Assembly: GCA_023384575.1 (NCBI GenBank) | Contig: JAHDVP010000001.1 | Span: forward strand, 55,443-119,037 | Source of the DNA: Acidobacteriota bacterium | GTDB taxonomy: Bacteria; Acidobacteriota; Vicinamibacteria; Vicinamibacterales; JAFNAJ01 | Direction of reading: 5' to 3' | DNA length: 63,595 nucleotides | Made by a program: the position numbers and the translations under genes | The notes under the pieces: model-generated | Told to the model about the DNA's origin: nothing | What the model saw: only the letters and a program-made list of their open reading frames with translations | Databases searched by the model: none | In this document: positions 8,701-24,818 of the stretch, in pieces | Layout: each line of letters begins with the position of its first letter | Position numbering within the stretch: the first letter of the stretch is position 1

Positions 8701-11700
8701 TAATCGTCACCTCCGACGGCCGGCTGGTGCCGACGTGCGTGGCCACGGCAAACCGGCCGTTCTGGGCGTAGACGATCTCCTGCGGGTAGAGCAGCGCCTC
8801 GTCGCGGCTCGGCACGAGGTTGTTGAGCCCCTGGCGGATGACGCCCGCCGACGGCCACAGGTGGTTGTCGAGCGGCAGAGCGCGGGTCACGCCGACGACA
8901 CCGTGGAACATGTCGTCGGGCAGGCCGCCGAGGCTGGTGTTCGGCGACGACACGGTCTGGAACGCCTGCTGCGCATCGAGGTCGAGAATGGCGAAATTGC
9001 CGGTCTGGAAGAGCGCCATCAGTGCCCGCCGGCCGTCGTGCCGCACCGTCATCGCGAACGGTCGCTTGGCGAACACGCTCGGGAACCGGAACTGGTTGAC
9101 GACGAGGCCGCCGCTCGTCGCCGGCGGGTTCCACCCGAAGACGACGTTGCTCGGGAAGAACCACGTCTGGGCGGGCGTCGCGCCGTCGACGCTGAAGACG
9201 CCGGTCATCGACGGCGCGCTGAGCAGCGTCTGCCCGCTCTCGGCCTGCAGCCTGATGTCCTGGGCCATCTGCGTGTAGAGCGCCGAGGCTCCGAGCGACA
9301 AGATGCCGACCGAGGTCAGCAGACCCGGCAGCCCGAGGCTCGCCGTGGCCGTCGCGCCAACCGCCGACGCGCCGAAGATCATCAGGTAGGTGCCGATCTC
9401 GAGATCGCCGGGCGGAATCGCCTGGAAGAAGTTCACGCCGCCGTTCACCAGGTAGATGTACTTCCCGTCGGCGCTCACCGCGACCGACGCGGGCTCGTCG
9501 CCGCCAGGGAACTGGCCGGGCCTGGCCATCGCGAGGGTCGGCACGCCGTCGAAGGCCGGGTTCATGTAGCGCGTGAGATCGCTCTGGAGGCCCGGGACGC
9601 CAGGGGCCCCGTCGGTGTAGAGGTCGACGTCGATCGGCATCACGAAGCCCGGCTGCATGCCGCCCCCGCCTCCCGTCGACACGGCGGCATAGAGCCGGCG
9701 CCCGTCAGGCGAGAGCGCAAGCGACGAGATCTGCGTCCCGGCCCGACCGTTGACGCCCGCCGTGGCGATGCCCTGCAGCGCGTTCAGCCGGTCGGCGAGG
9801 CTTGCGCCCTGCGTGGTCGAGGCGAGGGCGCGGTACTCCACCGGCAGATCCGCGAACGACTGGACGACGGCGTTCGACGCCGTGTTCACGATCGTGATGC
9901 CGAGCCCCGTCGCGACGTAGAGCAGACGGCCGTCGCGCGAGAACGCCATGCCTGGTCGAGGCGCCGACGGGGCGGCCGGCAGCGGCAGGAAGCCCTCGGC
10001 CCGCTGCGACGAGGTGTTGATGCGCATCAGGCCCCTGCCGCCCGTCGTCGACACGACCACGTAGGCGCGATCGCCGACCGGCGAGATCGCGATGCCCGTG
10101 GGCCGGGTCCCGGAGACGGCCAGCAGGCCGACCGACGTCTCGAGCGGAATCACGCGATCGGAGGCCGGTGCCAGCTTGAGGCCCGTCAGCGGGTCGATCT
10201 CCATCGCCACGAGCGAGCCCGTGCCGCCCGCGTCCTGGTCGGCCACGTAGATGGTCTGCGTGTCGGAAGGCGGCAGGAGCGCGCGCACCGCGGCGAGCGC
10301 GTTCACGCGGCGCATCGGGCCCGGATCCCACGTCGAGGTGATGTCGTCAGCCGTATCGAGAAGCAGCGCGCGCAGTTGATCGGGCGCGATGGCCGCCGCG
10401 TTCGGCCGGATGGCCTGCAGGATGGCGGCAATGCCCGCCATCATGGGCGAGGAATACGAGGTGCCGCGGCTGCGCGTGTACGCCACGCCGCCGGTCGACT
10501 TCTCGACCGAGAGCGCCACGTAGATGTCCTCACCCGGCGCGGCCAGCGTCACCGTTGGGCCGCAGGCCGAGCCGTCGAGCTTGGTGATGGGGTCGCAGGC
10601 CAGGTGCGCCAGGTTGTCGGCGATGTTGTTGCCGAAGACGGCCCGCCGGTCGGCCAGTTCGCCGGTCCCATCGGAGTTGAGCACCCCGACACCCGCAATG
10701 CTCATCACGTACGGGAGGCTCCCTGCCAGCGAGTCGGGCAGGCTGAAGGACGAGTCGATGCCTTCGTTCCCCGCCGCGACGAAGATCGTGGTCTTGCCGC
10801 CGAAGAGCGCGAAGGCGTCGACCAACGACTGCCGATAGTCGAGGAACGCCTGCGTGGCGGACGGATACTCGCGACCCCAGCTCGCGTTCAGGATGTCGAT
10901 GTTTGCGGCGGCCAGCACGGTCAGCGCCGCCAGGTTGGCATTGCCCCACGACTTCCCGTCCGACGACTGGTTCGCGTACGACAGCAGCTGGAAGTTGGCC
11001 TCGTTCGGCTTGAACAGGCTGCCGAAGGTGCCGCTGAAGGTGCCGCCGTTGTTCAGGCCGGCGATCACGCTGATGACCTTCGTGCCGTGCCCGTGGGCGT
11101 CACTGAAGCCGGCCTCGAACGCGCCGGTCGTCGCGTTCGGCCGGAAGGCCTGGACGAGGTCGACGCCGTTCACCTGGAAGTCGCCACGGTTCACAGGGTT
11201 GAAGCCAGTGTCGATCACGCCGATCCGGACGACCTTGAACGCGTTCGGGTCGTCCACGAACCCCGGCGTCGACCGGATGGCCCGGATGGCGTCGATGACG
11301 CGCGCCTGCGACAGATAGGTGGCGACGGCGCCGCCACTGATCCAGTTCGACCCGCGATCGACGATGTCGATCGAGAAGTCGCGGAGGTCGACGGTGCTCA
11401 CCGCCGACAGGTAGCGCACGCCAGGACGGTTCCGGAGATCGCGTCCGAGCGCGTGGTAGCCAGCAAGCGTCCGGTTCGCGGCGAACTGGAACTCGGCGGT
11501 CTGCAGGACGACGTTCCGCCCGACGATCGTCGCCCCGACCGACGCCGCAAGCGCCTCGATCTCGCTGGCCTCGACGCCTGGCTCGAAGTGCACGGTCCAG
11601 CGGTCGACGGCCACTTCGCCGCCGCTTGCCGGATCGAAACGCGCGGCGGCGGCAGCGACCGGCGCGAAGGTCGGCGGCGGCAGCGGCGTGTCGTTGCCGA

Positions 11701-14700
11701 CGACGAAGGTCGGCCCTTCACCCCGGCGCGCCGTCACGATGACCACGAGCTGACCGTCGCGCCCCTCGGCGGGCACGATGGCGTCCACTCGCGACGGCGT
11801 CACGGCGGCCACGCGGCCGGGAACGCCGCCAAACAGCACCCGCACGCGCTCGACGTCGTCGCCAAACCCGCTGCCCTCGATGGCCACGGCAGTTCCTGGC
11901 CCGCCGGACGCGGGCTGCACGGCCGTGATGCTCACCGGACCCTGATCGAGGCGCGACGACACCTCGTACTCCACCGACGCCCCGTTGGCGGCTTCGATGC
12001 CCAGGAACGCGGGCCCGGCGGCTACCGGCTGCGTGACGCGTTCGACCCGGGAGGTGGGCGTGACGCGCTGCAGCTCGTTGCCGCCCGCGTCGAGGAAGAG
12101 GACCCGCACGTCGGCCGGGCTCGTCGTCGGGCCGAGCTGCACGGTGCTCACGACGGCGCCGGCAAGCGGCACGTCGAGCCTGAAGACGTCGCGGCTGTCG
12201 CCGCTGCCGAGCGTGCCGCGTACGGGCGCGTCGAGCGCAGCCGGCGTCGCCGTCGCCACCGTGTCGTTGGGCTCCGCGTCGACGCCCGCTTCTTCCACGA
12301 CGAGTGCCGTCGTCGCCTCGAGGGTCGCGCCGCCAGTCGGGTTGACCACCGCGGCCCTGAGCGTGGTCGCACCGGCCACGAGCCGCATCACGCGCACACG
12401 CGCGATGCCATCGAAGTCCGTCACGGCCGGATAGGTGCGCGCGCCCGGCACGCCAATGGCGACCGTCAGCCCCTCGAGCGACCCGGTGCCGGTCACCCGC
12501 GCCGTGACGTCGACGACGCCTGGCACCGAGGGCACGGGGTCGGGAACAGGGTCGAGCGTGAGCGCGGTGAGGTCGGGGGTGGTCCGCAGCTCGACGGCCA
12601 CCTGCACGACCTCGACGAGGTCGCCGGCGCGCACGGTGACCGTCGCCAGGCCGTTGCCCACCGCGAGCAGCCTGCCGCTGTCGTCGACGGTGACGACCGA
12701 CGTGTCGCTCGACTCGAACGTGATGCCGAGGGCCGCGAAATCGACCGACGCCTCACCGTTGGTGAACTGGGCGGCAAGGCGCAGGCCCAGCAGCTCGCCC
12801 GAACCGGTCAGCGTGTAGTTGTTCTGCCGGACCTCGAGCGTCTCGAGCGCTGCCGGCGCATCGACCGTGACGCGCGCCGCGCCGAACACGGTACCGTTGC
12901 GCACCAGGATTTCCGTCGTGCCGCCAGCCACGGCGGTGACGAGCCCCGTCTCCGACACGCGCGCGATGCGCTCGTTCGCCGAGAAGTAGGTCGTGCCCGA
13001 CGCGGGCGACGTCACGTTGATCACGCGGCCGTCGCGCATGCGGGCCGACACCGACAACTGCTGCGCACGCACGCTCGACGACAGGTCGACCACGAAGGGC
13101 ACGATCCCAAGGGAGTCGACCGTGGACGTGGAGAGATCGGGCGCGACGAGGCGGAAGTCGAACGAGTCGACGAGCTGGCCGGCCAGCGTCTGGATCCGCA
13201 GGGTGACGGCACTGCCCGTCGACACGGCGGCCCGGTCGAGCAGCAGCTCGAGGTCGTTCCGGCCGGTCACGAGCCGCGTCGACGTCGTCCCGTCGGCAAA
13301 CGACAGCAGACGCGGGCTGCCGGCGTCGGGCTCTTCCTGAATCACGAGCGCGAGGTCGACTCCAGGCGGAATCGCCGCGAGCACGCGGACGAGAATCGCC
13401 TCGTCCGATACGAACGCCGAGCGCGAGGTCGCCATCGACTGTTCGTCGCCAGCGAACCCACGCACCGGATCGCGGCGAATCGTCTCGAGGACCGTGCGCG
13501 CCGGACGAAGCTGTACCGCCGTGAGGCCGCTCGAGCCGTCGGCGACGTAGCCGATACCGAGGCCGGCGTCGAACGCGAGACGGCCCGCGAGGCCCGGCGT
13601 GTCGACGATGCCGAGCACGCGGTCGTCGAGCCCATTGCGATCGAGGTCGATCGGCGAGATCGCGGCGATCCCCGTCAGGTCGACCACGGCGATCCCGCGC
13701 GAGCCGATGCCGACGTAGGCGAGCCGATCGGCGGTGTCCACGACGACGCCCGTCGCGTCGCCCGGCAGGCGGATCACGGAGAACCGCTCGGGCCGGGTGG
13801 GGTCGGTGACGTCGAACAGCTGCACCGTCGCCTCGCCCGAGGTCGCGAGCACGGCGAGGTCGAAGATCTCGCGATCCGGGTGGATGACGCCGTCGCCGTC
13901 GCGATCCATATCGAAGCGCGGCACCACGGCCAGCGCGCGCGCGTCTCCGAACGGCCCGACGTTGCCCGTGCGGGCAAATGACGTTCGGTCGAGGACCGAG
14001 AGGCCGTTGCCGCCCGCCACGACGACTCGTTCGTCGAGGACGGCGGCTTCGACAATCGACTCCGCGGGTTCAGCGGGATACCGGCCGTCGAGACCGCGTG
14101 CGGGGTTGGCGGCGTCGAGCGGAATCGCCTCGCCGAGCGTCACCTGCTGCACGCCGCCGCCGGCGAGCGCCACGAGCGCCTCGCCGCCTGCCACGCCCAC
14201 CGCCCCGGGGGTTCCCGCGACATTCGGCACGCCGGCCGGAGGCGTCTGTCCAGCAGGCGTCGTCACCTGCGTCGATCCAATGCGGACCGGCGCCGCGCTG
14301 CCCGAGACGGTCCACGACTCGAGGCGTCCCGCCTCGCTGCCGCCACCGGACGAGACGACGCCAACCTGGCCCGCCACGAGCGCGTTCTCGCGATCGCGGA
14401 CGACGCCCTCGTCGGTGAACCGCACCCCGCGCGCACCGCCGGCGATGGGCGCCTGCGCGACCACCTGCGGCTGATCCGGGCGGGCGACGTCGACCACGGA
14501 GAAGCCGTCGGCGGTGGCCAGCAATGCCACGTCGGTCCCGAGCGCGACGTCACGCGCGGCGCCGACGGCCAGGTTCGCCATCACGCGCGGCGCGAACGCC
14601 GTGAATTCGCCCGTGAACGCCACCGGCAGCCGCGCACCCGACACGGCGGCCACCGTCGTCGACACACCGAAGCGGTAGCGGGTGCCGAAGCGCCACCGGC

Positions 14701-17700
14701 GGAGCGGCTCGAACGTGGCCGTCGTCCCGCCGCCCGACAGCGATACGCGCCCGAAGATCCGGTTGCCGAGCTGATCGGTGACGACGAGGCCCTCGCCCGC
14801 GAGGGTCTGGGGATCGATCGGCTCTGAGAAGCTGAAGACGAGCGGGCGGCTGATGTCGACGCCGGTCGCCCCCGTGAGGTTCGCGGTGACCGTGAGGGTC
14901 GCCTCGGGCGAGCCGAGCGGGAAGCCCAGATCCTGCCGACCCGACGGGCCGGCCACGCCGCTGACCGTGCCGAGCAGCGCCCCGGTCGAGGCATCGGAGA
15001 AGCGCAGCGAGAAGGCCTCATCAGCCGGCACTGGCAGGATGAACGCGCCATTGGGGCGTCCGGTCTCGGCGGCGAGCGGCCAGCCGTCGGCCGTCACGAC
15101 GGCCGCCGGGCCGCTGACGCGTCCGGTGAGATTGACGAGCGGCCCCGACGAGGCCACCGCGCTCAAGGCGCCGCCGGTCGTCGTGCCAGGGAACTCGCGT
15201 CCGACCGTGCGCAGGAACACCTGGCCGTCGCGCGAGACCGGCTCGAGGCGGTCGACCACCGAGAGGTGGGCTTCGCCGTTGACGTCGATGACGCGGCCGA
15301 CGAGCACGGTGGTCGTCGGCGCAGGCGCCGCAGCGACGGGCAGTTCGAAGTCAACCCGGGCTGCCGGCGCGTCGCCGCGCACGGTGACCTGCTGGTTCGG
15401 CAGGGCCTGCCGCGGCACGTCGACGAAGACCGACGGGAACTCGAGGTCGTTGCCCGCCACGATGCGGGTGGCGTCGGGACTGGCCTCGACGACCGTGATG
15501 GCGCCCTCAATCGAGCGGCGCAGACCGCTGACATCGGTGACGCTGGCCGTGGCCCGCAGCGTCGCCGAGACGAGGAAGTTGAACGCGACGGTGACCTGGC
15601 GCTCGGCGGCAAACGGCGACTCGCCAACCTGTGACGGCGCGATCGTCGAGTTCGAGAACGCGAGCGAGAACGAGCCGACCTGGTTGAACGCGGCGCCGTC
15701 GGCGTGCAGGACGAACCGGTCGGCATGCGACAGCGTGGATGGCAGCACGGGCCAGGTGCCAGCGGCGACATCGGCGTCGTCGATGCGGAAGAGCCCAGGG
15801 GCCGTGAGGCTGCGTGGGATGATGCGGCCCACGCGCCCGTTCGCGCCGCGGATGACCCCGCCGCGCAGGCCAATGGCGCTCGTGCCGTCTTCGCCATCGA
15901 GCTGGGCGATGGTGAAGGTGACCTCGCGGCCGTCCTCGCCGCGCAGGATGAGCGCGAGGTCGTCGCCCGCGATCGCCGTCAGACGGAACCGGAACGAGCC
16001 GTCGTCGAGGGCGAGCACGGTCACGGTTTCCTGCGTGCGCAGGTTCGTGCCGGACACCGGCGTGAGCGGCTCGGCGCTGCCAGCCGTGCCGAAGATCAGG
16101 ACGAACCCGTCCTCGTCGGGCAGTTGCGCCGTGATGAGGCCCGCGGTGGGTTGCGGCGGCTTCGACGGGTCGAAGGTGGTGAAGTTGATGGGGGCGAACG
16201 GCAGCACGGCGCGGCCCAGCGGGCTCCGCAGCCCGTCGTCGATCGCGAGCGTGTGGAGGGTGAGCCCGGCGAGCGCGCTGTCGGGCCGCAGCGTGACGCG
16301 CCGGCGATCGGCCGAGACGAGCCGCTGCGCCGCGATGGGCTGGCCTGCGGCGCTCAACACGATCGTCGCGTCGGTCACCGTGAGCGGGTCGATGGGCTCC
16401 GAGAAGTCGATCACGATCGACGTATCGAGCGGCACGTTGCGCGCGTCGGCGGCGGGACTGGTCGAGATCACGCTCGGCGCGATGGCGGCCAGCGTGAGGT
16501 CGAGCGGCGCCACGCCGGCCACGGCGACGACGGTGGCCACCCCCGTGGCCGACGCGCCGCCGGCGAAGTCGAGCGCCGTGACCCGCGCCTCGATTCCGAC
16601 GATGCCGGCGACGACGTAACGTCCATCGGCGCCAGTGAGGTCGGCGAGCGCCGTGGCATCGCTCGTGACGAGTGCGCCGGGCTGGGGAGTGCCGCCGCCC
16701 GGCTGGAACACCGCGCCCGCCACGAAACCAAGCGGCGCGGTCGGCACGAGGAACAGGAAGTCGCCGCCGCCGGTCACGCCGGGCAGCGTCAGCGCGCCGA
16801 GCGTCCGACCCGTCGCGACACGCGAGGCGGTGACGTCGCCAATGGCGATGATGCGCAGGCGCTGGCCGCCGAGCGGGTCGACGAAGGTCTGCGCCACCAC
16901 GACCAGCGCGTTGGCGTCGAGCGACACGGGACGCACGATCGACAGCACGGCCGGCTGGCCGAACAGCGCGCCGACCAGATCGACACGCACGCCGCCCGCG
17001 AGCGTGAACCCCTCCGGCACGTTGACGCTCGCCGGCACGATGGGCCTGAGCTCGATTGGAGTGTCGTCGGCGAGCGCGCCCGCGGGGACGTCGAGGCGGT
17101 TGCCCGCCTCGTCGGTCACCGATCCGCCCCCGGTGCCGACCACCGCCCCGCCCTCCCCCGCCCCGGGCGCCGAGACGGCCAGGCGCACCTGGCCCTGCAG
17201 CAGGTCGAGCAGGCCGAAGTTGAGCGACGGGGCCACGACGAAGCGCGCGGCGAGCGAGTCGGATCCGCCGAGGCGCGGCCGCGCGTACGTGATGAAGTCC
17301 TGCGTGAACGGCAGCGGCACGACCGCCGAGTTGTCGATGAGATCGAACCGCTCCGTGACCCTCGCCTGCACGGCGAGACCGCTCGGCAGAGGCGCGTCGG
17401 GGTCGAGCACGACCTGCCCGGGCGCCCAGACGTCGTCGCCAGGGGTCACCGACCGCGGAGTCACCTCGCCCGACGCGGCCACGTCCTCGGGCAGGGCAAC
17501 GGGTTCGACGCCCGCGAGGTCGGCGCCCGTCGCAGGCAGCGGCGGCGTGAACGGGGCGGGGTCGGGCACGGCCGCCGCGAACTGACCGGCCTGGTCGATG
17601 GCAGCGACGATCGTCCGGCCGTCGTTCGACACGACGCCGGGAGCCTGCGCCACCCACGCACCCTGTAGGCGGTCGTAGCGCGCGAGCACGACCTCGGCGC

Positions 17701-19678
17701 CGGCCGGCAAGCCGACGGTATTGGGCAGGCGAAGGGTCGCCGGCTGAGCGAAGGTCATCGGCGACGGGAAGATGTCGGCGACGGCCGCGGGCGACCAGCC
17801 GTATGGCAGCCGACCGGCAAGGCCCTGGCCCGAGATCGACGTCAGCCGAATCGTCGTGTTGACGGCAATCGCCCCGGGCGGGAGCGTCAGCGACATCGTC
17901 TGGTCGGCGTTCCGCGCGTCGCCGCCGAAGGCCGAGAGGATCTCGTTCAGCCGCGGGTCGATGGGCGTCAGCCTCGCGTCGAGCAGGCTCGTCGCCGTAT
18001 CGGGCTCGATGCGGCCGCGACGGTCAACCGAGGTGAAGCCGGGCTTCTCGACGCGCACGAGCACGTCACCGGCCGCGCCGGGCAGCACGAAGCGTCCGCG
18101 GGCGTCGGCCACGGTGGTCGCAGGCGTCGGCAGCGGGCCGGTGCCGTCCTCGAGCAGCGTGATGGTGGCGCCGGCGAGCAGTCGGCTTCGCGAGTCGTCG
18201 AGCACCTGGCCGCGGACGAACCCCGTCGCGGTGCCGAAGACGACGCGCACGGCAGCCGTCGCGAAGAGACCGCCGTGGTTGGCGGTGATCGTCGCCTCGC
18301 CCTCCGCAACGGCCGTGACGAGACCAGTGGCGCCAACCGTGACTGCCGTCTCGTCATTCGAAGCATAGGTTGTCGCTGGATCGGCCGTGAGGTCGCGCGT
18401 CGAGCCATCGGAGTAGCGACCGAGCAGTCCGAGCTGCGCCGTGGCGTTCTCGGCCCGAAGCGTCGTCTGCAGCGGGCGAAGCTCGAGAGCGGTCAGCGTC
18501 ACCGGCGATTCGACGACGACCACGAAGTCCTGCGTGGCGAGACCGCCGCGGCCGTCGGACACCTCGAGGCCGACCTCGTGCGGGCCGACCTGGCTCTCGG
18601 ACGGCGTCCACACCACGGCGCCTTCGGGGCTGATAGACAAACCAGCGGGTCCGCGCGAGAGCGCAAACGCCAGCGGGTCACCGTCCGGGTCGTTCGCGAC
18701 GACCTGGTACAGATAAGCCTGACCGATGCGCGCGGTGGTGACCGGCGTCGACGTGATGACCGGCGGTTGGTTGCGGCGCGTGACGGTCACGGCCTGCGAG
18801 GCGCTGGCCGTGCCGCCGTTGCCGTCGGAGACCGTGAGCCGCACGGTGAAGACGCCTTCGGCGGCGAAGATGTGCGTGACGCTCGCGCCGGTGCCGGTGG
18901 CGCCGTCGCCGAAGTTCCAGGCGAACGACAGCGGGTCGCCATCAGGATCGCTGGCAATGGCCGAGAACGTGACCTGGTCGCCGACGAAGGTCTCGGTGGG
19001 GCCCTGGATCTCGGCGGACGGGGCACGGTTGGGCGGCTGGTTGACGGTGACGGTGAACGCGCCCGTCGCGATGGCCTGATGGTTGGTCGAGATCGCGGCG
19101 ACGTTGCGAACACCTGGTGTCGCGGTCGCCGAGATGTTGATGGTGGCCTCGAGCGTCGTTGCCGAAATGAACGCCGTCGAGACGACGGTGATGCCGGCCC
19201 CGAACGCCGCGCGCGCACCGTTGACGAACTGCGTGTTCGGCGAGGCCTGAACGCGCACGCGGAGGTTCTGCGAGCCAAGCGGACCAGACGTCACCTCGGG
19301 GAGGCCGATCTCGATGACCTCGAACGACACGCCTTCGCTGATCTCTCCGGTGAGGGTGTTGGTGACGCGCACCGCCGTGCGCCCCACCAGGATGCCCTGG
19401 GGCAATCGCACGGAGACGCGGCGGACGTCGGTCGTCGGCGAGACGACGGAGATCGCCGTCGGCACCGCCGTCGTCGTCGCGCCAGTCGCCACGTGCGTGA
19501 ACGTGACGGTGTTGTCGGCGGCGGTCGGCGCGAACCCCGTGCCGGTGACGTTCACCGTGACGTCGGCCGAGGCCGCGAGCGGCGTAATCACCGAGAGCGA
19601 TCCGGCGCTTGCGCTCGATGGCCAGACGAAGGCGAGCGCGAGGGCGGCGAGGAGTTTGGCGTGTCGAGAGATCACCAT
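5711..19678 (-). CDS. Giant exported multi-domain protein with active-type subtilisin (S8) protease domain, 4655 aa
   Basis: The chosen start is the ATG at 19678, because it gives a clean signal peptide (MVISRHAKLLAALALAFVWP, cleavage after SASA); the frame is open 54 codons further upstream. Rough domain order by residue: PKD 220-305 (NFGDG); cadherin/He-PIG-like Ig 305-390; Big2-like Ig 393-485; carboxypeptidase-regulatory-like 485-570; SbsA-type Ig near 1070 and 1600 (FSEPIDP in both); beta-propeller-like 1710-2070 with an EF-hand-like loop (DMDRDGDGVIHPDREIF); two Big2-like units 2190-2360; IPT/TIG 2580-2665; propeptide-like 2690-2765; S8 protease 2815-3110; second propeller-like 3137 to about 3800; DUF11-like near 4380-4490. 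The S8 site is complete: D2823 in VIDTG, H2864 in GHGT, oxyanion N2971 in AAGNEG, S3074 in GTSYSSP. No PEP-CTERM or LPXTG tail is seen. Role (adhesin, processing protease or matrix degradation) is inferred only. Confidence 0.93.
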   Translation of the reverse strand: MVISRHAKLLAALALAFVWPSSASAGSLSVITPLAASADVTVNVTGTGFAPTAADNTVTFTHVATGATTTAVPTAISVVSPTTDVRRVSVRLPQGILVGRTAVRVTNTLTGEISEGVSFEVIEIGLPEVTSGPLGSQNLRVRVQASPNTQFVNGARAAFGAGITVVSTAFISATTLEATINISATATPGVRNVAAISTNHQAIATGAFTVTVNQPPNRAPSAEIQGPTETFVGDQVTFSAIASDPDGDPLSFAWNFGDGATGTGASVTHIFAAEGVFTVRLTVSDGNGGTASASQAVTVTRRNQPPVITSTPVTTARIGQAYLYQVVANDPDGDPLAFALSRGPAGLSISPEGAVVWTPSESQVGPHEVGLEVSDGRGGLATQDFVVVVESPVTLTALELRPLQTTLRAENATAQLGLLGRYSDGSTRDLTADPATTYASNDETAVTVGATGLVTAVAEGEATITANHGGLFATAAVRVVFGTATGFVRGQVLDDSRSRLLAGATITLLEDGTGPLPTPATTVADARGRFVLPGAAGDVLVRVEKPGFTSVDRRGRIEPDTATSLLDARLTPIDPRLNEILSAFGGDARNADQTMSLTLPPGAIAVNTTIRLTSISGQGLAGRLPYGWSPAAVADIFPSPMTFAQPATLRLPNTVGLPAGAEVVLARYDRLQGAWVAQAPGVVSNDGRTIVAAIDQAGQFAAAVPDPAPFTPPLPATGADLAGVEPVALPEDVAASGEVTPRSVTPGDDVWAPGQVVLDPDAPLPSGLAVQARVTERFDLIDNSAVVPLPFTQDFITYARPRLGGSDSLAARFVVAPSLNFGLLDLLQGQVRLAVSAPGAGEGGAVVGTGGGSVTDEAGNRLDVPAGALADDTPIELRPIVPASVNVPEGFTLAGGVRVDLVGALFGQPAVLSIVRPVSLDANALVVVAQTFVDPLGGQRLRIIAIGDVTASRVATGRTLGALTLPGVTGGGDFLFLVPTAPLGFVAGAVFQPGGGTPQPGALVTSDATALADLTGADGRYVVAGIVGIEARVTALDFAGGASATGVATVVAVAGVAPLDLTLAAIAPSVISTSPAADARNVPLDTSIVIDFSEPIDPLTVTDATIVLSAAGQPIAAQRLVSADRRRVTLRPDSALAGLTLHTLAIDDGLRSPLGRAVLPFAPINFTTFDPSKPPQPTAGLITAQLPDEDGFVLIFGTAGSAEPLTPVSGTNLRTQETVTVLALDDGSFRFRLTAIAGDDLALILRGEDGREVTFTIAQLDGEDGTSAIGLRGGVIRGANGRVGRIIPRSLTAPGLFRIDDADVAAGTWPVLPSTLSHADRFVLHADGAAFNQVGSFSLAFSNSTIAPSQVGESPFAAERQVTVAFNFLVSATLRATASVTDVSGLRRSIEGAITVVEASPDATRIVAGNDLEFPSVFVDVPRQALPNQQVTVRGDAPAARVDFELPVAAAPAPTTTVLVGRVIDVNGEAHLSVVDRLEPVSRDGQVFLRTVGREFPGTTTGGALSAVASSGPLVNLTGRVSGPAAVVTADGWPLAAETGRPNGAFILPVPADEAFSLRFSDASTGALLGTVSGVAGPSGRQDLGFPLGSPEATLTVTANLTGATGVDISRPLVFSFSEPIDPQTLAGEGLVVTDQLGNRIFGRVSLSGGGTTATFEPLRRWRFGTRYRFGVSTTVAAVSGARLPVAFTGEFTAFAPRVMANLAVGAARDVALGTDVALLATADGFSVVDVARPDQPQVVAQAPIAGGARGVRFTDEGVVRDRENALVAGQVGVVSSGGGSEAGRLESWTVSGSAAPVRIGSTQVTTPAGQTPPAGVPNVAGTPGAVGVAGGEALVALAGGGVQQVTLGEAIPLDAANPARGLDGRYPAEPAESIVEAAVLDERVVVAGGNGLSVLDRTSFARTGNVGPFGDARALAVVPRFDMDRDGDGVIHPDREIFDLAVLATSGEATVQLFDVTDPTRPERFSVIRLPGDATGVVVDTADRLAYVGIGSRGIAVVDLTGIAAISPIDLDRNGLDDRVLGIVDTPGLAGRLAFDAGLGIGYVADGSSGLTAVQLRPARTVLETIRRDPVRGFAGDEQSMATSRSAFVSDEAILVRVLAAIPPGVDLALVIQEEPDAGSPRLLSFADGTTSTRLVTGRNDLELLLDRAAVSTGSAVTLRIQTLAGQLVDSFDFRLVAPDLSTSTVDSLGIVPFVVDLSSSVRAQQLSVSARMRDGRVINVTSPASGTTYFSANERIARVSETGLVTAVAGGTTEILVRNGTVFGAARVTVDAPAALETLEVRQNNYTLTGSGELLGLRLAAQFTNGEASVDFAALGITFESSDTSVVTVDDSGRLLAVGNGLATVTVRAGDLVEVVQVAVELRTTPDLTALTLDPVPDPVPSVPGVVDVTARVTGTGSLEGLTVAIGVPGARTYPAVTDFDGIARVRVMRLVAGATTLRAAVVNPTGGATLEATTALVVEEAGVDAEPNDTVATATPAALDAPVRGTLGSGDSRDVFRLDVPLAGAVVSTVQLGPTTSPADVRVLFLDAGGNELQRVTPTSRVERVTQPVAAGPAFLGIEAANGASVEYEVSSRLDQGPVSITAVQPASGGPGTAVAIEGSGFGDDVERVRVLFGGVPGRVAAVTPSRVDAIVPAEGRDGQLVVIVTARRGEGPTFVVGNDTPLPPPTFAPVAAAAARFDPASGGEVAVDRWTVHFEPGVEASEIEALAASVGATIVGRNVVLQTAEFQFAANRTLAGYHALGRDLRNRPGVRYLSAVSTVDLRDFSIDIVDRGSNWISGGAVATYLSQARVIDAIRAIRSTPGFVDDPNAFKVVRIGVIDTGFNPVNRGDFQVNGVDLVQAFRPNATTGAFEAGFSDAHGHGTKVISVIAGLNNGGTFSGTFGSLFKPNEANFQLLSYANQSSDGKSWGNANLAALTVLAAANIDILNASWGREYPSATQAFLDYRQSLVDAFALFGGKTTIFVAAGNEGIDSSFSLPDSLAGSLPYVMSIAGVGVLNSDGTGELADRRAVFGNNIADNLAHLACDPITKLDGSACGPTVTLAAPGEDIYVALSVEKSTGGVAYTRSRGTSYSSPMMAGIAAILQAIRPNAAAIAPDQLRALLLDTADDITSTWDPGPMRRVNALAAVRALLPPSDTQTIYVADQDAGGTGSLVAMEIDPLTGLKLAPASDRVIPLETSVGLLAVSGTRPTGIAISPVGDRAYVVVSTTGGRGLMRINTSSQRAEGFLPLPAAPSAPRPGMAFSRDGRLLYVATGLGITIVNTASNAVVQSFADLPVEYRALASTTQGASLADRLNALQGIATAGVNGRAGTQISSLALSPDGRRLYAAVSTGGGGGMQPGFVMPIDVDLYTDGAPGVPGLQSDLTRYMNPAFDGVPTLAMARPGQFPGGDEPASVAVSADGKYIYLVNGGVNFFQAIPPGDLEIGTYLMIFGASAVGATATASLGLPGLLTSVGILSLGASALYTQMAQDIRLQAESGQTLLSAPSMTGVFSVDGATPAQTWFFPSNVVFGWNPPATSGGLVVNQFRFPSVFAKRPFAMTVRHDGRRALMALFQTGNFAILDLDAQQAFQTVSSPNTSLGGLPDDMFHGVVGVTRALPLDNHLWPSAGVIRQGLNNLVPSRDEALLYPQEIVYAQNGRFAVATHVGTSRPSEVTITLPDWTQSDRTFASLTLRGWQISQSSTSGEDENGNPVSVGGSYTFKKSGGAVTIIDDQAITADLEAKIDLPIFSSGTTRPYYSTIPVCRQASIISSQVNTCAQPVVTHYYEHRAGGTPTDFIRPRGVAVQPFVYIESPRFGDHVTRGTAIHVGWRDARIRKLVVSVYDRSTPDQNGDPTLVYEEPVQLDAQTIQRRTTTAQFGALFYPEAQPVQGHRYRVVIQAYVDVPANERLSIVDLDVVFDDTAAQPNFNQLELTPLANFFIEAPSQAQDAKQLKVVLKRVDGSEVDVTTSPDTTITWLGNGLLPGEVEDLNEILAEIRTKLAEDGVPVPFDIGEISVDASRMLHAVSPGLQVIRATHPDAVGSSFAVVFMGLQLDKIAIEPESPLTTGINTLMDLVKEGENNAPLLLTTFDAAWFASVGYVRLVDVKFKFLGQGSLAVEDLEKALDALLKKAKVVGTKAKILKKIVTLATSVTATEFLLDLESGNTDIASVGCPGVIDVDGCVKGLNPGVTEVTGTLDLNEFTVLGQTYRVGLGKKSDSVVTLVLPELDTVEVKPHKTVINRADPPVPGPTIRSLAKLRVFDDATLELPDSFADVTEFAEAVLPEFMRTATAEGTTFSITENLDLFVRGTVALEGNGIAVRGFQFGFTVPTNVPGITNGYLVRDASLADAVTSTLGGPIRFRTHLRHKNRVGRSFIDNTVQIVGLGQAPGLGQVEICDCATGFLVKSISDQSLVFEPGSTVTFTIELANPRQQEVLDVVLVDTTTFYPGSQSAPTGPPQETTTQTFLGTFAPNESRTVTIAYTMPNQVGEVVNVASAAGFIESRVSVPTGGPVISEMVLRPQRDWNDSSGGNGVPFDDMPGNGTVDNADIWVEITSPTTPTENWQVVLVDDTGAEFSQVLGPPIIFPSDPTRAPVRVLSNFGVGAAPIVRVEVRDQNGLVRQTLDILAIEAALGPATGPDNESLTWSIYGSPTLPTQQFVRRRATIGVFNPF

Positions 19679-19911
19679 GACCTGATGTCTTCGTCTCTGA
19701 GGTGGCGGCCTCGCCGGGGCGGCGGCCAACGCACACTGATGGCTTCGGTGAAGGAAACGCCAGCCGCGAGGCGTTTCCCTCAGCGTCGATCCGACGAATT
19801 TTCGAAGAAATCTCAGGTGAAACGGCGGCGCACGGCACACGCGCGCCGCGTCGAGCGTGAGGGGGCTCGCACGAGCGGATACGGTCGTTCAGGCGCGCGA
19901 CCGCGCGCGCT
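19679..19911. other. Spacer upstream of the giant S8 protein
   Basis: 233 bp between the start of the S8 protein and the stop of the PEP-CTERM gene, both on the minus strand. I see no additional gene and no clear sigma70 promoter or strong terminator. The stretch nearest the S8 start lacks a strong Shine-Dalgarno; only a weak AGG lies just before the ATG. Confidence 0.5.
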
Positions 19912-20484
19912 TCACGACGTCGGTTGGCGCCGCCGCCGGAGCATCGCGCCACCGACGCCGAGCCCCATCAGGAGCAGAGCCGTCGGCTCGGGCACCGAGG
20001 CCGGTGGTGCCGTCTCGAAACCAATGCGGACGGCGCCGTCGCCAGTCAACGTCATCGCGGTCAGGGCTGAAGAGAACGTCACGCCACGGAAGATGAAGTC
20101 GACCGCGGCGGATTGGAGCCCCACCAGGGAGATGAGTGCGGTGTCCGTCTGGAACCCGGCCGCAAGCACCAACGGAAAGGAACCAAGGGTCGCCAGGTCG
20201 ACGAGGCCGCCGCCGATATCCACCCACACAACGATGTCGGTGAGGTCGTCGGCAAACGCCGCAAACGCCGGGTCGGTATCGCTGATGTTGATCAGCGTCA
20301 ACACCGGCTCGAAGAAGTCCGGGTCTCCGAAGCCGAAGATGTCGACCTCAGCCCACTCGAACTGCGCGACCGGCATGCAGGTCGGCGAGCTGAAGTCGAG
20401 GCACGGGACGGCCTCCGCTCGCGCCACGGGCAGCAGGGTGCCGACCGTCACGAAGAAGGCGAGGGCGAGAACACGTCGACTCAT
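19912..20484 (-). CDS. PEP-CTERM sorting-domain protein
   Basis: 190 residues from the ATG at 20484, which begins a signal peptide (MSRRVLALAFFVTVGTLLPV, then ARAEA). The body is a small acidic beta-rich domain rich in hydrophobic, Phe and Asp residues (residues 25-160), with two Cys near the N-terminus. The C-terminus is a textbook PEP-CTERM tripartite tail: VPEP, a hydrophobic stretch TALLLMGLGVGGAML, then RRRRQ. In known systems exosortase cleaves at PEP and the protein is delivered to the surface or exopolysaccharide. No exosortase gene lies in this window. The frame is open further upstream, but earlier starts would bury the signal peptide. It sits between the CHAT-protein gene and the giant S8 gene on the same strand, which suggests a shared role at the cell surface. 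Confidence 0.88.
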   Translation of the reverse strand: MSRRVLALAFFVTVGTLLPVARAEAVPCLDFSSPTCMPVAQFEWAEVDIFGFGDPDFFEPVLTLINISDTDPAFAAFADDLTDIVVWVDIGGGLVDLATLGSFPLVLAAGFQTDTALISLVGLQSAAVDFIFRGVTFSSALTAMTLTGDGAVRIGFETAPPASVPEPTALLLMGLGVGGAMLRRRRQPTS

Positions 20485-20749: not shown

Positions 20750-23569
20750 TCACGACGCCACCTCCCGGCTGCGCCGGTGCCGTTCCCACCACCAGCCTCC
20801 GGCCGACACACCCACGAGCGCAACGACGACCCCGCCCCACCACGGCCACGCCGGCGCGGCGCCGCCGGGAATCGGCACGACCTCGGCATCGCCGATGACG
20901 ACGAGGCCGGACCAGGCGGCGGCCGGCCGCCCGGCCAGCATCAACTCGCGTCGCGCAGCCGCCACGGCGGCCCCCAGGCTCTCGCCTCGTCCCAGGTGAA
21001 AGTAGAGCCGCTGCACGATGTCGGCCGCCTCCGCATCGCGCACGGGCCACAGGTTGGCCACCACCGCGCGCGCACCTGCCTGGAAGAAGCCGTGCGCCAG
21101 GCCCATGAGGCCCTCTCCGGGAATGAACCGGCCCGACGCACTGCGGCACGCCGACAGGACGACGACGCGCCCACCGAGACCAAGGCCGACGACCTCGCGC
21201 AGCTGCAGCAGGCCATCTTCGGTCTCGCTGCCCGGCGCGAGCAGCACGGCCGTGCGCGCCGGCTGCTCCTCGTCGACGAGCGCGTGGGCCGCGAGGTGGA
21301 GGATGCGATACCGGTCGATGCCCCCGGTCTTCACGAAGTGCTCGCTCGCGCGGGCCCCGTCGAGCACGCGGCTGCCGCGCCCGGCCTGACGCGCGAGCGC
21401 CCGCGCTTCGACCCGCGCGTAGGGCAGCTGGCCGACCGGCACGCCGGTGCCGGACGCGCGCTCGAGGGCGGCGACGACGGCCTCGTCGCGGCCAGAGAAC
21501 GCCGGGTCGGCCAGTGCCAGCACCGGCTCGGCCGCGAGGTCGAACGGCTGCTGCCGCCACCTGAGCCACACCGAGGCCGACGGCGCGAGCGAGATCTGGA
21601 ATCGCACGCCGAGCGGCTCGCCATCGGCGGTGGCGCGCAGCACGTCGAGCGGCACGCGGTGGAGCGCATCGTCGGGCACGACAACGAGCTTCGTGATGCC
21701 GTCGGGCAGCGATTCGACGAGTGGCGCGAGGTAGTCGCGGTAGATTCCCGTCGAGGCGATGGCCTCCGACCCGTCGCGCCGTTCGAGCAATCCCAGGAAC
21801 AGGTCGACCGCCGAGCTGAGGTAGCGAACGTCGGGCAGCGGTCGCACCTCGACCTGCGTGCGGGTGATGGCCCAGCCCCAGGCGCCGATGGGCTGACGCT
21901 GGACATCCCACAGGTTGCTGACGAGGTGGAGGACGACGATCGCCTCGTCGGGCGCCAGCGCCCGGCGAAGCGCCTCGATCGACGCCAGGTGCGGCTCGAC
22001 GGTCGAAGCGAACACGGGGTCGCGCCGGGTGAGTTCCGCGGAGAGGCGCGCCTCTTCTCGTTCCAGCGCGTCGCGCGCCGCGAGCCGTTCCCGGCGCGCG
22101 TCGTCGGACAGTCTGCGGTCGGCGAGCTCGCGGTTGGCGCGGGCGAGTCGGGCGAGGACATCGCGCCGTTCGGCGTGCAGCGGGTCGTCCGACAGCAACT
22201 GGCCGGTGGCCGCGGCGGCGTCGAGCCGGTCGAGCAGCGACCGCGCGCGCAGCCGCTCGATCGTCTCGAAGGCGAGCTGCCGGTCGCGCGCGATGGCCTC
22301 GGGGTCGGCGTGTTCACGCAGCTCGCCCGCCAGCAGGCGGCCCGCGAGCAGATAGTACTGGCCTCGCCACTGGGCGAACCGCATCGCCCGAATGTCGGTC
22401 TCGGGCTGGAGGTTGCGGAGCGCCTCGATCAGGCCGAGCGTGGTCTGCGCGTCGGCAATCGCCTGTTCGCGGGGACCGACGCGCCAGCGCATCGACGTCC
22501 GCAGCACCCACTGGCGCACCAGCTCGTTGGCGTCGCCGCTGCGCCGCGCGTCGTCGATCGACGCATCGATCAATGTGAACGCCTGCTCCGGATCGACGTC
22601 GAGCGTGCGGAAGGCCAGCACGCGCCTCGCGCGCAGCAGGCCCTCGGGATGGCCGATGGCCACGTTGATCTCGATGGCGCGCCGCGCGTGGGCGCGCGAC
22701 TCCTCGCCTGGCGTCGCTTCGGCGAGGTAGTAGTGCGCCGACGCCTCGGCCCGCCGGTTGCCGGCGCGCCTCGCCAGGTGCAGCGCCTCCTGTGCCAGGC
22801 GCACCTTCTCGTCTCCGGAGACGAACAAGAGCACGTTGACGCGGGCGATGGCCTCTTCGTGGAAGTCGCCGCTGGCGTGCAGGAGGTCGGCCTGCCGGAG
22901 GTAGAGCGCCTTCGCGTCGGGGTGCTGGCCGAGCGCCCAGAGCGTGGCCGCGCGTGCGCTCAGCCAGTCGGAGTGCGCGTCGTACGGCACGGCGTCCAGA
23001 CCGCCGGCCACAGCGTCGAGCAGCCGCAGTGCGCCGCCGTAGTCGAGCCGGCGGTATGCGAGCCACGCCTTCGACACCGCCGTGCGGACGGTCAACTCGG
23101 AGCGTCCGTCCACCGAGGCAATCGCCTGCGCCTCGTCGAGCGGCGTCTCGGAATCGTCTTCGCGATCGGCGCGCTGCAGCAGCGACGCCAGCGACGTCCG
23201 CGCCAGCACCCGGCCGTAGGCATCGCCCCGGCGGTCGTAGGCCGCGATGGCGTGCCCGTAGGCCGCCTCGGCTTCGGGACGCCGGCCGTCCCGGTCGTGC
23301 GCCTGGCCGAGGGCGAGCCACGCGGGCGCGTTCTCGGGGTCGAGCAGTGTATAGCTCGTCAGCCTCGCGATGGCCTCGTGCAGCGTGCCCCGGCCGTCAC
23401 GGGTCACGAAGTTGTAGCAGCGGTACGAGGCCGGCTCGCGCGGCGCACGTCTGACGAGCGCATCGCACTCGTCGAAGGTCGCCGCTGGCTGCGCCGCGGC
23501 GGTCACGACCGGCGCCACCGCCAAGGCCACGGCGAACACGAGGCGGGCGCGCAACCGCAGCTCGGGCAT
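20750..23569 (-). CDS. Exported TPR-CHAT protein (caspase-like peptidase), C-terminal membrane anchor
   Basis: 939 residues from the ATG at 23569, 5 nt after the stop of the anti-sigma gene. Residues 1-28 form a signal peptide (LVFAVALAVAPVVTAAAQ). Residues 30-470 are helical TPR-type repeats (for example AWLALGQAHDRDGRRPEAEA), followed by a charged helical segment to about 600. The CHAT domain spans about 640-890. Its expected His/Cys pair is visible: H758/H762 in ILHLAAHA and C808 in VVLSACRSASG, the latter matching the family's LSAC-x-T/S-x-x-G signature. A hydrophobic segment at about 905-927 (WWGGVVVALVGVSAGGWWW) followed by ERHRRSR is a membrane anchor with a positive cytoplasmic tail. 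This places TPR and CHAT domains in the periplasm, an inference from topology rules. CHAT proteins are caspase/separase-clan peptidases. Coupling to a sigma/anti-sigma pair suggests a signalling role; the substrate is unknown. Confidence 0.9.
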   Translation of the reverse strand: MPELRLRARLVFAVALAVAPVVTAAAQPAATFDECDALVRRAPREPASYRCYNFVTRDGRGTLHEAIARLTSYTLLDPENAPAWLALGQAHDRDGRRPEAEAAYGHAIAAYDRRGDAYGRVLARTSLASLLQRADREDDSETPLDEAQAIASVDGRSELTVRTAVSKAWLAYRRLDYGGALRLLDAVAGGLDAVPYDAHSDWLSARAATLWALGQHPDAKALYLRQADLLHASGDFHEEAIARVNVLLFVSGDEKVRLAQEALHLARRAGNRRAEASAHYYLAEATPGEESRAHARRAIEINVAIGHPEGLLRARRVLAFRTLDVDPEQAFTLIDASIDDARRSGDANELVRQWVLRTSMRWRVGPREQAIADAQTTLGLIEALRNLQPETDIRAMRFAQWRGQYYLLAGRLLAGELREHADPEAIARDRQLAFETIERLRARSLLDRLDAAAATGQLLSDDPLHAERRDVLARLARANRELADRRLSDDARRERLAARDALEREEARLSAELTRRDPVFASTVEPHLASIEALRRALAPDEAIVVLHLVSNLWDVQRQPIGAWGWAITRTQVEVRPLPDVRYLSSAVDLFLGLLERRDGSEAIASTGIYRDYLAPLVESLPDGITKLVVVPDDALHRVPLDVLRATADGEPLGVRFQISLAPSASVWLRWRQQPFDLAAEPVLALADPAFSGRDEAVVAALERASGTGVPVGQLPYARVEARALARQAGRGSRVLDGARASEHFVKTGGIDRYRILHLAAHALVDEEQPARTAVLLAPGSETEDGLLQLREVVGLGLGGRVVVLSACRSASGRFIPGEGLMGLAHGFFQAGARAVVANLWPVRDAEAADIVQRLYFHLGRGESLGAAVAAARRELMLAGRPAAAWSGLVVIGDAEVVPIPGGAAPAWPWWGGVVVALVGVSAGGWWWERHRRSREVAS

Positions 23570-23574
23570 GCCGT

Positions 23575-24267
23575 TCAGCGGACGAAGAGGACGTGGACGG
23601 GCGACTGGAGGCGCGCCCGGCCGGGACCGAGCGCCTCGACCTGCCACAGGAGTTTCGTGCCCGGCTGGAGGCGCTCGAGCGCGGACGCGGGCACGTGATA
23701 CTCGGGCTCGAGCAGGTTCGACGCCGTGGCCACGATGGCGAGCGTGTCGGTGGTGACCCGCACGGCATAGTGCGACGCCCCGGCGGGAGGCTCCCATCGA
23801 AGCACGAACGCCTCACGGGGCAGTTCCGCGCCGTCGGGCACGGAGAGCACCAGTTCGCGCCCTCCGCCGGCCCGCAGGGTCGTGCCGCTGTCGCTCGGCC
23901 GTGGGCCCCAGGCGCCGTGGTCGATCGCCAGTCCGACGACGAGCACGACGCTCGCCGCGGCGGCGGGCAGCCAGACCCACGGTGAGCGCCAGGCCGGCCG
24001 GACGGCGGCGCGCACCGGTGCCGGGCCCGTCACCTCGACACCACTCGCCAGCGCCAGCTCGCGCGCCAGCCTCCACGCCTCCGAGCATTCGCCGCACTCG
24101 GCCAGATGGAGGACGGCCGATCGGACCTCCGCCGCCGGACGCTCGCCAGCGAGCGCCGTCCACATCCACTCCGGGTCGAGGCAGGCCTCGTCGGTGCGCG
24201 GCCGATCGGTCAGGCGCTCGAACGCCTGCCTCAGTCGCACGACATCGTCGGCCATCTCTGGCGTCAC
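23575..24267 (-). CDS. Membrane anti-sigma factor with zinc-finger motif and periplasmic Fn3/Ig-like domain
   Basis: The start is taken as the GTG at 24267, whose GTGA overlaps the sigma-factor stop by 4 nt (translational coupling); an ATG at 24255 is an alternative. 230 residues. The cytoplasmic part carries the anti-sigma zinc motif H-x3-C-x2-C at H54, C58 and C61 (HLAECGEC). One membrane span lies at about 97-115 (WVWLPAAAASVVLVVGLAI). Residues 125-230 form a beta-rich periplasmic domain with an Fn3-like pattern (LRWEPPAGASHYAVRV and LLWQVEALG). The family sequesters its cognate sigma factor until an envelope signal releases it; degradation or conformational release cannot be told from sequence. 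The gene lies between the sigma and CHAT genes with almost no gaps, so the three are very likely one transcript. Confidence 0.85.
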   Translation of the reverse strand: MTPEMADDVVRLRQAFERLTDRPRTDEACLDPEWMWTALAGERPAAEVRSAVLHLAECGECSEAWRLARELALASGVEVTGPAPVRAAVRPAWRSPWVWLPAAAASVVLVVGLAIDHGAWGPRPSDSGTTLRAGGGRELVLSVPDGAELPREAFVLRWEPPAGASHYAVRVTTDTLAIVATASNLLEPEYHVPASALERLQPGTKLLWQVEALGPGRARLQSPVHVLFVR

Positions 24268-24818
24268 GGCTCGAGTCCTTTCGCGGCCAGGCAGCGACGC
24301 AGGTCGGCGAGGCCGCGGTACACGAGGTTGTCGGCGCGCTTCTCGGGCCACCCCAGGAGTCGGGCGACCTCGGGCACACGATGCCCCAGCAGGAACAGCG
24401 TCACCGCCTGGCGACGCGCCTCGACGACTCCCCCAAGGCAGTCGCGTAGGGCGTCGTTGAGCTCGCGACGCCGTACAGTCGTCTCGGCCGACCCGCTCGA
24501 CCCGCCCGCCAGCACCTCAGGGTCGACGTCGTCGAGGCGTGCCTCGCGCCGCCGCCGCATCCGCCGGATCTCGTCGACCGTCGCGCTGTACGCCACCTTC
24601 GTCAGGTAAGACGACGAGAAGACCCGATTCCCCTCAGCCCGCTGGAGTTGGTGCACCTTCAGGACGGCCGCCTGGACGATGTCGTCCTGCTGGGCGGTCA
24701 GCCACGCGGGGCACGCCCTCGACACGGCGCGCGCCAGCCGGGCCCGCAGGTCGTCGTAGTCGAGCTCGTCGACTCGCGCCTCGTCGAGACCGGCCGGAAG
24801 CTGAGAGCGGTCGTCCAT
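24264..24818 (-). CDS. ECF-like RNA polymerase sigma-70 family factor
   Basis: 184 residues. The region 2-like part lies at about 25-90 (DDIVQAAVLKVHQLQ, then a DEIRRMRRRREAR promoter-melting/-10 segment). After a short linker, the region 4-like helix-turn-helix lies at about 120-180 (AVTLFLLGHRVPEVARLLGW, then KRADNLVYRGLADLRRCL). There is no region 1 or 3, so it is an ECF-sized alternative sigma factor. It directs RNA polymerase to a specific promoter set. The first likely targets are its own operon and possibly the surface-protein genes downstream; this is inference. Its stop overlaps the start of the anti-sigma gene. A TACAAT box lies about 115 nt upstream. Confidence 0.85.
   Translation of the reverse strand: MDDRSQLPAGLDEARVDELDYDDLRARLARAVSRACPAWLTAQQDDIVQAAVLKVHQLQRAEGNRVFSSSYLTKVAYSATVDEIRRMRRRREARLDDVDPEVLAGGSSGSAETTVRRRELNDALRDCLGGVVEARRQAVTLFLLGHRVPEVARLLGWPEKRADNLVYRGLADLRRCLAAKGLEP

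Follow-up and report, generated by a model that had tools for sequence, protein, structure and literature searches.

An ECF sigma factor, a putative one-pass anti-sigma factor and a predicted exported TPR-CHAT protein form a recurrent gene trio that may be a split module of envelope signaling

We analyzed a stretch of 63,595 nucleotides from an Acidobacteriota genome (the window) and found three neighboring genes on its minus strand, which encode an ECF sigma factor (24264-24818), a putative one-pass anti-sigma factor (23575-24267), and a TPR-CHAT protein predicted to be exported (20750-23569). Our preferred but tentative reading, to which we give a probability of about 0.4, is that they form an envelope-signaling module in which the TPR-CHAT protein would be a dedicated exported protease that cuts the anti-sigma linker at site 1. 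Sigma and CHAT genes are linked beyond chance, and the conservation of the trio suggests that the protease helps to release the sigma factor upon sensing at the cell surface, with the CHAT protein most likely acting in the sensing arm of the window's sigma/anti-sigma pair.

The GTG start of the anti-sigma gene lies inside the stop codon of the sigma gene (GTGA, 24264-24267), and only 5 nt (23570-23574) separate the anti-sigma gene from the CHAT gene. Both features had been given in a preliminary description of this DNA and were correct on re-checking; its wording that the three genes are translated as one unit is better replaced by the statement that the trio is probably co-transcribed and translationally coupled. 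Directly downstream of the CHAT gene and on the same strand is a gene for a PEP-CTERM protein (19912-20484, minus strand; PF07589, 25.9 bits), a neighbor not seen among the listed loci of relatives. The window also holds a giant ORF of 4709 aa (5711-19840, minus strand), whose product is apparently exported and by eye contains a subtilase-like segment and numerous stretches that resemble repeats.

The 184-aa product of the sigma gene scores above the cut-off for the sigma70-ECF superfamily (TIGR02937, 45.4 bits against 42.9) and for sigma region 4 (PF08281, 28.3 bits against a Pfam cut-off of 25.7), and region 2 reaches 16.2 bits in Pfam, under the cut-off of 24. Judged by its sequence, it fits an ECF sigma factor, a type with sigma70 regions 2 and 4 only. 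The 230-aa product of the overlapping gene was assigned as its putative one-pass membrane anti-sigma factor from the reading frame, a zinc-type motif, a single transmembrane helix, and orthologs that adjoin CHAT genes among the 60 relatives searched (as direct neighbors in G006, G028, and G037; in G001, at a contig end, the N-terminal part of a CHAT protein follows the anti-sigma gene). The motif H54-x3-C58-x2-C61 (24085-24108) is present although the zf-HC2 profile gives a sub-threshold 15.2 bits (cut-off 22.2). In the anti-sigma orthologs of L051-L053, L216, and L224 this HxxxCxxC motif is missing, with the remainder of the protein conserved. The AlphaFold model and hydropathy place one transmembrane helix at residues 99-118 (23914-23973), followed by a predicted periplasmic linker (residues 119-138, 23854-23913) that carries Arg-132 (23872-23874) and is disordered in the model between residues 120 and 133 (pLDDT <50), and then by a confidently modeled, predicted extracytoplasmic β-sandwich (residues 139-230, 23578-23853) with Foldseek matches to Fn3/Ig folds.

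The third gene encodes 939 aa, for which the structural model has a pLDDT of 84. Its N terminus (residues 1-27, 23489-23569) resembles a signal peptide in hydropathy and composition and precedes a TPR solenoid at about residues 32-418 (22316-23476), which is weak in Pfam but clear in the structural model as helical hairpins, with TPR families also returned by a PDB profile search. The CHAT protease domain (residues 609-894, 20888-21745; PF12770, 184.6 bits) contains the His/Cys pair of this family at His-762 (21284-21286) and Cys-808 (21146-21148), which at the level of sequence identifies a CHAT protease. A C-terminal helix spans residues 910-938 in the model, and we assign residues 910-935 (20765-20842) as a membrane helix; it is Trp-rich and falls under the hydropathy threshold used, whereas the corresponding helix of relatives is more hydrophobic, and a C-terminal transmembrane helix is common to the clade of the window CHAT. 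Every element of the architecture that the preliminary description had proposed for this protein was thus found again, and its suggestion that protease and anti-sigma C-terminal domain share one compartment agrees with the predicted signal peptide and transmembrane topology. PADLOC gave no more than weak BovA matches for the CHAT domain.

Among sigma-linked CHAT proteins that cover the region, His and Cys are both kept in 73 of 73, and by a simple rule most of the linked proteins have a signal peptide, which is also visible by eye in several of the cases that the rule missed. Export in most linked cases together with the invariant pair favors the proposed module. The same pair is kept in 28 of the unlinked CHAT proteins that were scored, and an intact pair therefore speaks for intact chemistry rather than for a specific role, which weakens the argument to that extent.

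Gene linkage was surveyed in three ways. In the taxonomic order, where all frames of the retrieved loci were searched with the sigma profile, 28 of the 47 related CHAT genes have an ECF gene within 4 kb. The class and phylum searches yielded loci in which this holds for 46 of 58, and in a scan of named genome contigs 55 of 81 have an ECF gene within 3.5 kb. The loci of this last scan were picked by similarity to the window CHAT, and some of them overlap with the earlier surveys, so that the three counts are not independent. Chance would give about 8%, calculated from an ECF density of 7.6 per Mb in eight genomes, and the excess is significant even at an assumed background of 20%. The sigma/anti-sigma/TPR-CHAT linkage to which the preliminary description had drawn attention is thus widely conserved. 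The genomes examined are rich in ECF genes and in CHAT genes alike, and their neighborhood might be without functional meaning simply because both are common; these counts, and the natural zinc-TM-TPR-CHAT fusions described below, make that highly improbable. Records in the named-contig scan include Myxococcus, Pyxidicoccus, Corallococcus, Gemmatimonadetes, and Proteobacteria, and trios of this kind are present in Acidobacteriota, Myxococcota, and other phyla. The presence of the trio in Myxococcus xanthus AM003, a strain of a genetically tractable species, makes the proposal testable.

Four gene orders occur among 54 trios, with sigma, anti-sigma, and CHAT on one strand in 42, a convergent arrangement in 6, a divergent one in 3, and CHAT first in 3; eight of the anti-sigma/CHAT junctions have a 4-nt overlap. 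That the neighborhood is kept in several orders points to a shared function beyond shared transcription, and linkage far over background in three surveys and four orders favors the module. Sigma, anti-sigma, and CHAT distances are correlated (r about 0.8), which counts little here because vertical descent alone would give the same result.

The frequent one-strand order would also suit a different arrangement, in which the CHAT protein is the output: the sigma factor would drive the operon, the exported protease would be an effector directed at envelope or foreign proteins, for example in stress clean-up or conflict, and the anti-sigma factor would be switched by other means. Sigma, anti-sigma, and CHAT on one strand in 42 of 54 trios is what autoregulated output would produce, and the anti-sigma family can apparently work free of CHAT, given that its linker arginine is kept in members without one (see below). 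Against this stand the myxobacterial protein DdvA and the fusions of anti-sigma-type parts with CHAT, which put CHAT inside the switch, and, as a weak test, the search for a two-part ECF-type promoter motif shared ahead of the sigma genes, in which nothing rose clearly above shuffles. On balance we consider output a rather unlikely role. The sequence upstream of CHAT contains a conserved TATAGTCG box in four convergent loci, and no clear counterpart was seen upstream of sigma in those four loci, where the sigma regions are poorly aligned.

Several loci depart from the simple trio. The window's own genome has five other CHAT genes (L007-L010) with no ECF gene within 4 kb. One sigma gene stands between two CHAT genes in L186, L193, L195, and L198, one CHAT protein having a C-terminal transmembrane helix and the other none, and in L186 and L198 an anti-sigma factor was recognized beside the sigma. 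In some Vicinamibacteria-like and Myxococcus loci the space between anti-sigma and CHAT holds a gene for a small protein whose N terminus resembles a signal peptide (L051:3964-4437, L052:5568-6062, L223:5295-5846, L238:5397-5948, and L246:5310-5819); no Pfam family scored over cut-off for it, and the window has no such gene.

Natural fusions connect the same parts within one chain. In L067 a single frame of 1059 aa comprises two zinc-type motifs, a transmembrane helix, a β-rich stretch, TPRs, CHAT, and a C-terminal transmembrane helix, and in L086 a protein directly behind the sigma gene joins a zinc motif, a transmembrane helix, TPR, and CHAT; the zinc parts of both were called from the motif alone, zf-HC2 not being reached. 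Adjoining the L067 fusion is an ECF sigma factor with a C-terminal CarboxypepD_reg domain (L067:4875-5798, minus strand). These fusions and the structure of DdvA independently connect CHAT with anti-sigma factors, and L067 and L086 favor the module on their own account. A further point for it comes from L074, where a PDZ-TPR-CHAT protein (L074:5635-9288; PDZ_2, E 2.5e-11) adjoins a sigma/anti-sigma pair, since a PDZ domain is also present in DegS.

Among the 44 linked anti-sigma factors only two positions are invariant, Ala-104 in the transmembrane helix and Arg-132 in the linker, the latter reaching the maximal 4.32 bits where neighboring positions have about 1.4-2.1, a pattern that at first resembled a cut site for a caspase-clan enzyme and made Arg-132 the best candidate in the sequence. 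Of 39 further family members, all 27 with a CHAT gene near have the arginine, as do 10 of the 12 without one in the aligned column, the remaining two having an arginine nearby by eye; it is also kept in G221, G275, G396, and G540, genomes that are 77-90% complete and gave no CHAT match. This control is small, as one orthologous locus seems to account for many of the unlinked cases. Stand-alone sigma/anti-sigma pairs that keep the linker arginine with no CHAT nearby occur in L339, L341, L346-L350, L354, and L356, and in several loci the stand-alone pair adjoins the same housekeeping genes.

We therefore no longer take Arg-132 to prove a cut by CHAT, because it is equally kept where CHAT is not near and in genomes with no detectable CHAT. 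It is a trait of the anti-sigma family and no evidence for CHAT, which weakens the case for the module, and if anti-sigma factors that lack a CHAT partner are cut at all, the cut would have to come from another source. From its conservation, Arg-132 may have a structural role or mark where a more general protease cuts, and for CHAT it is at most a candidate cut site. A general protease would fit an unlikely alternative in which the CHAT protein controls the anti-sigma factor but does not cut it. As a sensor or scaffold in the periplasm, it would bind the Fn3-like domain and either alter the hold on sigma or make the anti-sigma factor accessible to a site-1 protease of a general kind. A TPR solenoid is a platform for binding, and DdvA carries CHAT as part of an anti-sigma factor whose signal is unknown (PMC4374960), both of which suit such a role; the His/Cys pair, kept in every linked CHAT protein that covers the region, instead suggests a need for catalysis.

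Returning to cleavage at site 1, we infer from these computed features how the CHAT protein might act on the anti-sigma factor, with cleavage as the mode, and what site, signal, and regulon this would entail. The anti-sigma factor would keep sigma at the membrane, with its flexible linker and Fn3-like domain outside, and the exported CHAT protein would be tethered to the same membrane via its C-terminal helix. The protease would become active when the TPRs, or a partner, perceive a signal, and would make the site-1 cut in the periplasmic linker of the anti-sigma factor. Further cuts by an RseP-type site-2 protease and by cytoplasmic proteases would release sigma for transcription of its regulon, to which its own operon probably belongs. 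An M50 (RseP-type) site-2 protease gene is present in the window's own genome (G000:C1:195673-196908, 230.8 bits), a weak indicator since such genes are nearly universal. This gene and the flexible linker between transmembrane helix and Fn3-like domain favor the module, and the near universality of M50 genes weakens that support.

It is possible, if doubtful, that a large family of ECF anti-sigma factors, spread over Acidobacteriota, Myxococcota, and other phyla, has a caspase-clan CHAT protein as its dedicated site-1 protease in the periplasm, and that DdvA is a fused version of the same device. If so, CHAT proteins would be a new class of site-1 protease in a central bacterial signaling pathway, many uncharacterized exported CHAT proteins would gain a function, and the logic of Craspase, in which a CHAT protease cuts an anti-sigma factor, would be tied to ordinary envelope signaling.

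Among known folds, the CHAT model is most similar to Csx29 (Z 23.9), followed by separase (5fby; Z 19.4, rmsd 3.4 over 316 residues) and DdvA (8rw5; Z 19.2, rmsd 6.0 over 629 residues), the last comparison covering the whole TPR-CHAT fold. Separase has the same protease fold but is eukaryotic and cleaves cohesin, with no sigma factor involved. The presumed aspartate of its Arg pocket does not appear to align with a conserved acid in the window CHAT. The matches to DdvA and to Csx29, which cleaves Csx30, favor the module.

In the RIP systems (DegS-RseP-RseA and relatives), as in the window, a one-pass anti-sigma factor with an extracytoplasmic domain is encoded by a gene that overlaps the sigma gene, but the site-1 proteases named in the cited literature are not CHAT proteases. 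The context of ECF54 has conserved genes for CHAT, subtilase, and carboxypeptidase proteins, and proteolytic control has been proposed for it in the absence of an anti-sigma factor (PMC8999054). The window shares the CHAT neighbor but has an anti-sigma gene overlapping the sigma gene, and in this differs from the ECF54 context as described.

DdvS/DdvA of Myxococcus xanthus (structures 8rot and 8rw5) likewise pairs an ECF sigma factor with a membrane anti-sigma factor and shares the TPR-CHAT fold, and DdvS becomes active once an unknown signal inactivates DdvA (PMC4374960). DdvA aligns with the window CHAT with His and Cys present, and the L067 and L086 fusions are similar to it in layout. DdvA is one chain, however, whereas the window has separate anti-sigma and CHAT ORFs, the CHAT protein with its own predicted signal peptide and C-terminal anchor. 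A role of CHAT in anti-sigma control is thus already known, in fused form.

Craspase, a type III-E CRISPR system with Csx29, Csx30, and CASP-sigma, ties a TPR-CHAT protease to an ECF sigma factor as in the window, and Csx29 cleaves Csx30, an anti-sigma factor, within a flexible loop (PMC10028731), which shows a CHAT protease able to cut an anti-sigma factor and makes site-1 cleavage the most economical mechanism. Craspase is RNA-guided and cytoplasmic, working with Cas7-11 and crRNA, whereas the window CHAT is predicted to be exported; by inspection, no Cas proteins were recognized among the neighboring ORFs, and unlike the window anti-sigma factor, Csx30 is not a one-pass membrane protein. 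On the reading we prefer, the window CHAT would act on the anti-sigma factor, probably as a site-1 protease, in a split periplasmic variant. Hence, although the preliminary description knew of no earlier account of the layout, DdvA, Craspase, and the ECF54 context are precedents for it, and what stands of that claim is the split, exported arrangement: the finding is a variant of a partly known theme and not a new kind of system.
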